Below, one piece after another: positions 8,277 to 41,803 of a stretch of DNA of 51,878 nucleotides. Position 1 is the stretch's first letter. The number at the start of each line of letters is the position of its first letter. The DNA lies in NCBI GenBank assembly GCA_024277895.1, contig JAJRUH010000002.1:1-51878 (forward strand), read 5' to 3'. The position numbers and the translations under genes are program-made. The notes below the pieces were generated by a model. It saw only the letters and a list, made by a program, of their open reading frames with translations. It ran no database searches and was not told the DNA's origin. This stretch comes from Bacteroidota bacterium (GTDB lineage Bacteria > Bacteroidota > Bacteroidia > Bacteroidales > JAADGE01).

Positions 8277-9038
8277 ATGGATATTGAAATATTGACATCA
8301 GCCCTTATTCTCGGACTTGTAACAGGCTTTCATTGTATAGGAATGTGCGGTCCTGTTGCCGTTGCTTTACCGCTTAAAAAAGAAAGCAGGACTTCAAAAA
8401 TCAGCAGTGCAGCACTTTACAATATCGGCAGAACAGTTACTTATTCTGCAATGGGATTATTTTTCGGTTTCTTCGGTCAAAGTTTTGCAATGGCAGGATT
8501 TCAAAAATGGGTTTCATTAACAATGGGCATTTTAATGATTTTGTATGTTATTTTCCCTGCTGTTTTTAAAAATCACTTGAACTTTGACAAATATGCCTTC
8601 AAATATGTTGGAAAATTACGTTTTCAATTGAGAAAATTATTCGGAAAAAGAACCTATTCAAGATTATTTTTAATCGGACTCTTAAACGGACTGTTGCCCT
8701 GCGGTCCCGTATATGCAGCTTTAGCAGGAGCTATTGCTGCGGGCGGAGCAATTTCAGGCTCTTTATTTATGTTTCTTTTCGGTATCGGAACAATACCTGT
8801 TATGCTTTCCGTTTCTTTATTAGGAAGCAAAATCAGTTTAAAATCAAAGAAAAAATTATCAAAATTAATTCCGTTAACAATTATTTTAATAGGTTTTTTA
8901 TTTATAATGAGAGGCTTGGGTCTCGGAATACCGTTTTTGAGTCCGCCTGATAAAATGCTGAAACCTCATAAAAAAGAAATGATGATGCATACACAATCAT
9001 CTGAGAACATCCCTCAAAATTATCAACAATTTTTTTAG
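8277..9038 (+). CDS. SafE/DsbD-like membrane transporter of the cbb3 cluster
   Basis: A 253-residue protein with about six membrane helices, in the DsbD_2/TauE-SafE-like group. Two Cys-Gly-Pro motifs stand out: GFHCIGMCGP (residues 17-26) and LLPCGP (139-144), in the positions where CcdA/DsbD-type carriers have their reactive cysteines. Members of this group are routinely found in cbb3 clusters and are suspected of handling copper or reducing equivalents; the exact substrate is not settled. I take the ATG at 8277, two bases after the fixH stop, rather than an in-frame TTG at 8262 inside fixH. The C terminus is rich in Met, His and Lys (KEMMMHTQSS), which would suit metal binding. Confidence 0.78.
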   Translation: MDIEILTSALILGLVTGFHCIGMCGPVAVALPLKKESRTSKISSAALYNIGRTVTYSAMGLFFGFFGQSFAMAGFQKWVSLTMGILMILYVIFPAVFKNHLNFDKYAFKYVGKLRFQLRKLFGKRTYSRLFLIGLLNGLLPCGPVYAALAGAIAAGGAISGSLFMFLFGIGTIPVMLSVSLLGSKISLKSKKKLSKLIPLTIILIGFLFIMRGLGLGIPFLSPPDKMLKPHKKEMMMHTQSSENIPQNYQQFF

Positions 9039-33008: not shown

Positions 33009-34310
33009 ATGCGAGAAAATATAACCATATCCGAAAATTTTTTACACTACATATGGAAAAATAAACTTTTCCGTTCTGAAAATATGACCGACGCTGACGG
33101 CAATCATATTAAAGTTCTCTCGACCGGAACATTAAACACCGATGCCGGACCCGATTTTTTTAATGCAAAAATAAAAATCGGGGATACAATTTGGGCAGGA
33201 AATATTGAAATCCATCTCCGTTCATCCGATTGGTATAAACACAATCATCATAAAGACCATGCATATAATAATGTCATTCTGCACCTTGTTATCGAAAATG
33301 ATAAAGATTGTTATTCTGCTGATAACAAATTAATTACAATAAGTACTTTAAACTATGCCAATAATCTTTTTGAACAATATAAAAATTTAATTAATAACTA
33401 GCAAGAAATTTTATGCAGTAATTTTATACTCAAAATTGACAAATTTTATCTGAACAGTTGGTTATCATCTATACTCATTGAACGAGCCGAACAAAAAACA
33501 GCTTACGCAAAAAGTTTATTCGATTTTAAAACAGCCGATTGGGAAGAAATATTTTATATCCTAACAGCACGAGCTTTCGGATTTAAAGTAAATGCCTTAC
33601 CATTCGAACTGCTGGCAAAATCACTTCCGCTTAAAATGCTTGCTAAGCACAAAAACAACAAATTTCAACTCGAAGCCCTGCTTTTCGGTCAAGCCGGAAT
33701 GTTAAACGATGATGAAATAAATGACGACTATTATCTTCAACTGAAAAAAGAATATCATTTTCTGAAAGCAAAATACAAATTGCAAGCAATTGAAAAGCAT
33801 TTATGGAAATTTTTACGTATCCGACCGTCTAATTTTCCGACAATAAGAATAGCTCAATTTGCCGATTTAATTTTTAAATCTTCACATCTTTTTTCAAAGG
33901 TTTTAGAGATAAAAAAAGTAAAAGAACTTGAAACACTATTCTTTATCGAAGCAGGCAACTATTGGAAAACACATTATAAATTCGGAAAAGAAACACGTTT
34001 TAAAGACAAAAAAATAGGCAAAACAGCCCTGAATTCAATAATAATCAACACCGTTATACCTGTTTTGTTTCTTTACGGAAAAGAAAAAGACAAACCCGAA
34101 ACTATTGAAAAAGCAATTAGTTTTCTTGAAAATATCAAACCCGAGAAAAATAATATCGTAAAAAAATGGGAAAATACAGGTTTAAAAATAAAAAACGCTT
34201 ATTTTTCGCAAGCATTAATTCAACTTTATAACGAATATTGTATTAAAAAAAGATGTTTAGATTGCAGAATAGGACATCTTTACCTTCAAAATAAAAAAGC
34301 AGATGTCTAA
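33009..34310 (+). pseudogene. DUF2851 family gene interrupted by an in-frame TAG
   Basis: The reading frame spans 433 codon positions and is intact except for TAG at 33399-33401 (codon 131). The residues on both sides read on in the same frame: FEQYKNLINN, stop, QEILCSNFILKIDKFYLNSW. The family's SWLSSILIERAEQK segment follows, and the end has the Cys-rich CIKKRCLDCRIGHL. No base is lost or gained. This is a conserved Bacteroidota protein of unknown function. Either it is a recent nonsense mutation, a sequencing error, or TAG is read through; TAG ends several other genes in the window, so it is a normal stop here. A restart at ATG 33636 would give only the C-terminal 224 residues. The last 8 bases overlap the K+ channel gene. 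Confidence 0.82.
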
Positions 34311-40285: not shown

Positions 40286-41803
40286 CTAATGAGCCCAATC
40301 CGGAAAAATATTAATATCAATTCCAAAAATATGTTGTCCCCAAAAATATACAGTTGCACTCACAATTAACACACCGACCATATTCAATATAAAACCTGTT
40401 TTCATCATTTCTTAAATACGAATTTTATTTGTTCCGAAAATAATGGCATTCGGCGGAGTTGCTACAGGCAGCATAAATGCTAACGATGCGGCAAGCGTTC
40501 CGGTAATCATCAGCAGTAAAGGGTTCATTTTTAAAGAGATAGACAAACTTGCAAGTATCGGCAAAATCATTTGTGTTGAAGCCGTATTTGAAGTTAATTC
40601 GGTTAAAAAGGACATAAATAAAGCCACAATAATAATTATAACAAACGGATGAACTCCGGAAAGTACAGTTAACAATTCTCCGAGCCGGTCAGTTAAACCG
40701 GAAACTTTAAACCCCTTTGCCAAAGCAAAACCGCCGCCGAAAAGCAAAATTATATGCCAAGGCAGTTTTGCAAAAATTTCATTATCTAAAATACGTTTTT
40801 TCTCCTTTGATTTTGACGGAATCAGAAATAATACAGAAGCAACGAATATTGCAACGGTTCCGTCATTCAAATATTCGGGATTTTTAAATAAAGAAGCCCA
40901 GCCAGGAATATGAATTCCGAAATTAAACCCGTTTCTGAAAATCCATAAAAAAGCCAGAACTATAAAAGCCGTAAAAACAACTTTTTCTTCATAGCTTGCT
41001 TTTCCTAATGCTGCGTATTGATCTTTAAAAACAGTATTCCCTTTAACTTTTTCCTTTTCGGAAGGTTTATATTTAAAATATAATATCAGCCAAACCGCAA
41101 TCAGCATAATAAAAGATACAGGCAATGCAAATACAAACCATTGTGAAAAAGATATTTCCGGGGCACCGGGGAAATTTAACGCAAAAATCTTTGTAAAAGC
41201 CAAATTCGGCGGTGTACCTATTAATGTTGCTATTCCGCCTACCGATGCTCCGTAAGCAATACTCAAAAGCAAACCGATTGAAATTTTCTTTGCATCCTCA
41301 GGGTTTAGATATTCGGCAAATTTGTATATCAGCGACATAGCAACCGGCACCATCATCATTGCCGTTGCCGTGTTCGACATCCACATTGACAGAAAGGCAG
41401 TTGCAAACATAAATCCAAAAAGAATTTTTCCGAAACCGCTGCCGGAAACGGATAATATTTTTAAAGCAATTCTTTTGTGTAAATTATGTTTTTCCATTGC
41501 AAGTGCAACCAAAAAACCGCCGACAAATAAAAAAATTATACTGTTAAAATATTCCGACGAAACCGCTTTGCCGTTCATAATACCGAAAGCAGGGAACAAA
41601 ACAACCGGTAAAAGTGCCGTTACGGCTACCGGAACAGCTTCCGTAATCCACCAAACAGCCATCCAAACGGCTATTGCAAGCGTTGAAGTTACTTCCGGCT
41701 TACCGGGTTCTAAATCAACAAAAAGTAAAATTAAAACAGCAGATAAAACACCGGTAATCAGTCCTATTTGTTTACTGACAGTATTTTTGTTTTCTTTCGG
41801 CAT
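40286..41803 (-). pseudogene. DASS/SLC13 Na+-coupled anion transporter with in-frame TAA near the end
   Basis: Residues 1-463 form most of a divalent-anion:sodium symporter with about 11 helices. Both sodium-site SNT motifs are present (MSNTATAMM and LTSNTASTQMIL), plus GTPPNLAF and VATPPNAIIFG. The frame then meets TAA (40412-40414) and continues without shift for 41 more codons: EMMKTGFILNMVGVLIVSA and further to PDWAH, stopping at TAG 40286-40288. Family members normally have a last membrane helix after NAIIFG, and this tail is that helix. So the gene is either truncated by a point mutation, or the last helix is made separately from the ATGATG just after the stop. Substrate (dicarboxylate, sulfate or phosphate type) unknown. 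Confidence 0.8.

Follow-up and report, generated by a model that had tools for sequence, protein, structure and literature searches.

A gene of the DUF2851 family in the draft genome studied here is interrupted by a single in-frame TAG in an otherwise intact reading frame, and we put the probability that this TAG is a single-base error of the draft assembly at roughly 65%. The window, the whole stretch of DNA analysed, is a contig of 51,878 bases (C12) from draft genome G000, which comprises 3.19 Mb in 183 contigs and has a completeness of 95.7% and a contamination of 1.4%. The reading frame begins with an ATG at 33009 and ends with a TAA at 34308-34310, with one TAG between. The interrupted gene and its downstream neighbor are arranged as follows.

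33009..33398, + strand: DUF2851 upstream piece, predicted alpha/beta N domain, 130 codons; PF11013 profile positions 1-123, 172 bits
33399..33401, + strand: in-frame TAG, codon 131, in a predicted interdomain linker
33402..34310, + strand: DUF2851 downstream piece, predicted helical C domain, 302 codons plus TAA; PF11013 profile positions 127-375, 296.5 bits
34303..35340, + strand: K+ channel with TrkA domains (Ion_trans_2, TrkA_N, TrkA_C)

An earlier note on this DNA had described the TAG in an otherwise intact DUF2851 gene, and the letters at 33399-33401 were confirmed, as were the 130 codons before and 302 after. A PF11013 search of the whole genome gave a single match of 483.2 bits along the entire profile (1-375), with one TAG inside; the curated cut-off of this family is 25 bits, and the match is far beyond chance. 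The note's further claims, that the frame is conserved on both sides of the stop and contains no indel, agree with the adjoining profile ranges of the two pieces and with the unbroken alignment of residues 1-433 to the nearest relative, G012. The channel gene does overlap the end of the DUF2851 gene, as claimed, by 8 bases counted from its ATG at 34303. A homologue of the channel adjoins DUF2851 in at least 20 of the 38 relatives' loci examined, several of which are incomplete.

If the TAG is a wrong base, single-base errors would have turned sense codons into stops across the 183-contig genome, the DUF2851 TAG being one of many. In living cells the product would then be an ordinary DUF2851 protein of 433 residues, with nothing special at codon 131. 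What we infer here is that the error lies in the assembled sequence rather than in the cell.

The stop position was compared across 60 genomes, namely G000 and 59 relatives. A main DUF2851 match was found in 53 of the 59, all stop-free inside, and no match was found in the other six. Fifty of the 53 matches span the stop position (three pieces, in G010, G016 and G034, miss the site), and in none of these 50 is there a stop at the site. A second, weak match in G005, below the cut-off, contains TGA and TAA but is not the main gene. The comparison of codon 131 with orthologues that the earlier note had proposed thus yielded no stop in any spanning relative, at a position that is itself variable: in 38 loci the aligned residues were K (9), E (7), T, Q, N, A and R (3 each), D and P (2 each), H and S (1 each), and one gap. 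The stop is private to the G000 assembly among these genomes.

Additional lone stops were sought in 899,472 bp of G000 (the window plus further stretches) with a screen for stops that have coding signal directly before and behind them in one frame. A separate tblastn screen was run with coding ORFs only, because antisense ORFs swamped the one with all ORFs. The 48 candidates were mostly neighboring genes that share a frame. Selection by eye, which was not blind, of junctions at which no new gene begins left eleven in-frame interruptions, and eight of them have the support of homologues that run on past the stop.

Window 33399-33401, + strand, DUF2851: TAG; supported by PF11013 on both sides
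Window 40412-40414, - strand, DASS transporter: TAA; supported, G012 and human SLC13A5 run across
L079 7714, PpiC/SurA-like: TAA; supported by homologue
L079 10454, OstA-like: TAA; no homologue shown across the stop
L083 7227, PD40/SPOR protein: TAA; no homologue shown across the stop
L086 18032, BatA-type vWA: TAA; supported, same Pfam family on both sides
L089 2421 (contig C70), MurF-Alr fusion gene: TAA; supported by homologue
L097 10726, Cas1: TAA; supported, same Pfam family on both sides
L097 9448, unnamed gene: TAA; no homologue shown across the stop
L104 14898, ExbB/TolQ: TAG; supported by homologue
L149 2266 (contig C20), GcvP (glycine dehydrogenase), near the gene start: TAG; supported by the same Pfam family on both sides and by homologue

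Ten of these lie in the first 676,622 bp searched; the GcvP case came from an added 222,850 bp, and it adds to the excess and leaves the odds unmoved. The second stop in the window, which the earlier note does not mention, lies 7 kb from that in DUF2851, in the DASS-family transporter gene:

40289..41803, - strand: DASS-family transporter gene, 463 codons before the TAA and 41 after

Within it, the ORF 40412-41803 gives a Na_sulph_symp match of 238.8 bits on the long piece, with none on the short piece; the 41 residues behind the TAA are conserved. A TGA candidate (L137 1421), neither piece of which matches Pfam, was dropped as antisense-like, and two tblastn candidates in G000 (L109 5563 and 19303) and one in G001 (L167 9819) were dropped for weak flanks.

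The same screen and reading were applied to four relatives as controls, covering 691,124 bp of G012, 400,000 bp of G001, 200,000 bp of G003 and 200,000 bp of G022, 1,491,124 bp in total. Three interruptions were found, one supported and two not; none was left in the 200,000 bp of G022.

L127 13290 (G012): Cu-oxidase_4, supported, same family on both sides
L180 11533 (G003): unsupported, family on one side only
L171 364 (G001): unsupported, no family

The draft thus shows the excess of lone stops expected of base errors in an assembly, with eight supported cases in 899,472 bp against one in 1,491,124 bp. By bases searched, supported cases (8 versus 1) and all cases (11 versus 3) each give p of about 0.002, a value that serves only as a guide because the reading was not blind.

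The kind of lesion was examined by aligning G012 proteins to G000 DNA. Over 137 genes and 46,316 aligned residues, true nonsense was seen at two places, 33399 and 40414, and frameshifts at none; two further positions (L082 6387 and 6384) were dropped, as they lie just before an ATG and the start is likely set too far upstream. The reverse comparison, with 133 genes, gave no convincing nonsense and frameshifts in three genes, in four rows; two rows at L193 in a poor gapped stretch were dropped. The tblastn screen with coding ORFs gave one frameshift row for G012, in L122, and the G012 candidates from both comparisons lie in three genes, at L122 (about 429) and L210 (about 7387, 8255 and 12570). 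One frameshift candidate is known in G000, at L079 near 16050, from comparison with a G001 protein. G000 and G012 thus seem to be drafts with different types of lesion.

One of the interrupted genes deserves separate mention. The alanine racemase C domain has a single match in the whole G000 genome, with a TAA inside, and it was found stop-free in 19 of 20 other genomes, G005 being the one without a match. MurF and alanine racemase have roles in cell-wall synthesis, so it is difficult to believe that the stop in the sole racemase is real. Since lone stops are spread over the assembly and one of them affects the only alanine racemase, a base error is favored over a mutation. More generally, lone stops in several unrelated genes of the same draft make a wrong letter or a very recent mutation likelier than special decoding. 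Thus, of the three options that the earlier note had left, sequencing error and recent mutation stand, whereas site-specific readthrough found no support.

Some observations run against a base error: the completeness and contamination figures do not flag the genome, a frameshift candidate exists in G000, and there is no TGA among the stops. The 11 interruptions comprise eight TAA and three TAG, whereas about 25% TGA would be expected under equal rates of base change; the absence of TGA has p=0.043 for the 11 and p=0.10 for the eight supported cases. It is a weak oddity, not predicted by random error.

Cooley and Wright (2024; PMC11017572) describe internal stops in draft genomes as tracking assembly error, with low-quality reads raising internal stops rather than frameshifts. 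The pattern in G000 is comparable to their spurious internal-stop pseudogenes in having lone stops in intact genes, an excess over relatives and few frameshifts, and by this analogy it fits their picture of assembly error. Their proof came from reassembly and simulated reads, whereas G000 is judged here from its consensus sequence.

The explanation that ranks second, and that we regard as rather unlikely, is a true and very recent nonsense mutation. It would leave a 130-residue N-terminal fragment and a fresh pseudogene, with perhaps less translation of the channel. In its favor, the site varies among relatives, and many sense codons differ from TAG by a single base. With six of the 59 relatives giving no match, DUF2851 is dispensable in some of them, and a real loss in G000 is possible. 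Like a fresh natural nonsense pseudogene, the gene has one stop, a frame that is otherwise intact and no decay. In contrast to such a pseudogene, it lies in a genome with many stops of this kind, and a single mutation in DUF2851 leaves the other ten unexplained, above all that in the single-copy racemase; the lower frequency of frameshifts (none among the 137 genes compared with G012, and the one candidate against the G001 protein) is left unexplained as well.

The time available for such a loss is limited by the lack of decay. Relative to G012, omega was 0.23 before the stop and 0.19 behind it, and both halves of the gene are under purifying selection. In a relative-rate test with G005 as outgroup, private residue changes numbered 27 in G000 and 28 in G012, and those behind the stop 24 and 25, respectively. 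Among the ten outgroups used, significance was reached with two, G011 and G003, in both cases for the upstream piece, and there it was G012 that had changed more. G000 departs from the other eleven proteins at three of the 154 columns that are invariant among them, and the mirror count for G012 was likewise 3 of 154; in an alignment of 10 proteins, 47 of 71 invariant columns fall in the downstream piece. With no decay in either half, the stop is either recent or absent from the cell. If omega goes to 1 at loss, the gene could have died no earlier than about the final 18% of the branch, and a loss within that span is what the relative-rate test permits. An old pseudogene is rejected by the same test, there being no faster protein change behind the stop and one stop only. 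No second assembly of the species was found, the nearest genome being G012. The protein identity between G000 and G012 is 77% for DUF2851, 96% for the channel, 98.8% for DnaK, 78% for ClC and 83% for MiaA. The 77% was considered as a sign of decay and rejected, since the two lineages have changed equally and the nearby ClC and MiaA differ to about the same degree.

Site-specific readthrough of the TAG, which would yield a free N domain together with the full DUF2851 protein, is very improbable. Its appeal lies in the position of the stop. The read-through protein was modelled with a placeholder in the stop position (mean pLDDT 84.7). Inside the chain, pLDDT falls under 50 over three or more consecutive residues only at 131-134, between the N and C domains; modelled alone, the N domain reaches a mean pLDDT of 92.9. 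The base after the TAG is a C, both halves are under purifying selection, and high stop-codon readthrough in E. coli under stress is reported in PMC11126739. By the model, however, the stop falls at a domain boundary, which is where a chance stop most resembles design. A conserved programmed readthrough would keep its stop, and none of the 50 spanning relatives has it. No RNA structure was indicated in the 99 bases behind the stop, for which most shuffled versions gave better folds (z +1.38). Readthrough specific to this site also leaves aside the lone stops, mostly TAA, in unrelated genes of the assembly, which have no shared context. For the first ten stops the +4 base was noted but not used for inference, since coding sequence follows each stop.

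Equally improbable, in our estimate, is suppression of TAA and TAG across the genome, whether through weak release factors or through an ochre-type suppressor tRNA that escaped the search. In its fullest form, which we hold to be no less doubtful, many real lone TAA and TAG codons in conserved and even essential genes would be read through by such a suppressor or by leaky release, with TGA kept strict, and the DUF2851 gene would give a free N domain as well as the full protein. It would account for the lack of TGA among the 11 stops, for the conserved and even single-copy genes affected, and for the absence of decay in DUF2851. Like systems of readthrough and suppressor tRNAs, DUF2851 has an open and conserved frame behind its stop, but G000 is unlike them in that this stop is unconserved, RF1 is present (prfA, 505 bits), and no suppressor tRNA was seen. 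Rfam gave 37 tRNA matches in this 95.7% complete genome, with 150 scored out of 266 first-look candidates, and in none of the 37 was a CTA or TTA anticodon seen; ARAGORN typed 36 of these, and the last, cut by a contig end, has TCT in its anticodon loop. A tRNA with a CTA or TTA anticodon could still lie in the missing part of the genome. TAA and TAG are also ordinary terminators here: together they end 320 of 359 ORFs of more than 300 codons in the sampled genome. In addition, the residues at the stops in homologues differ, being Y in Alr, L in ExbB, K in PpiC, S or A in DASS and L or M in GcvP. No single amino acid was thus found across these five sites, and the DUF2851 site is variable, which argues against recoding to one amino acid.

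General reassignment of TAG, already considered unlikely in the earlier note, is rejected on the presence of RF1, the lack of a matching tRNA among the 37 matches, the differing residues at the stops, and the use of TAG as a common terminator, which ends 7 of the 36 window ORFs listed (including those at 9038, 13432, 42535 and 50371, as had been claimed) and 41 of the 359 long ORFs.

By itself, as one internal stop in a draft with many, the DUF2851 TAG carries little biological weight. It serves as a warning that lone stops should be counted across an assembly, including in single-copy essential genes, before readthrough or a pseudogene is called. If reads proved the stops true, natural suppression of TAA and TAG, a rare trait, would have to be ascribed to the organism, and that would be of great importance.

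The structure model also bears on the function of the protein. Foldseek at E 0.001 gave no match for the whole DUF2851 model or for the N domain, and only two weak matches came out of a profile search against PDB sequences, the better (E 0.0023) to a ribosomal protein. With VIA-align the N domain aligned to 2vld_B (Z 5.2, rmsd 4.3, 92 aligned) and to EndoMS, 5gke_A (Z 5.1, rmsd 3.6, 101 aligned), and among DNA glycosylases the C domain aligned best to 3knt_C (Z 6.0, rmsd 5.8, 168 aligned), all of these scores falling short of the value from which the tool recommends relying on a match. Three invariant cysteines are found near the end of the C domain. In the literature searched, DUF2851 is named in a table row. 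The weak resemblances of the N domain to PD-(D/E)XK nucleases such as EndoMS and of the C domain to DNA glycosylases are hints that DUF2851 may act on DNA, and it is possibly a DNA-repair enzyme.
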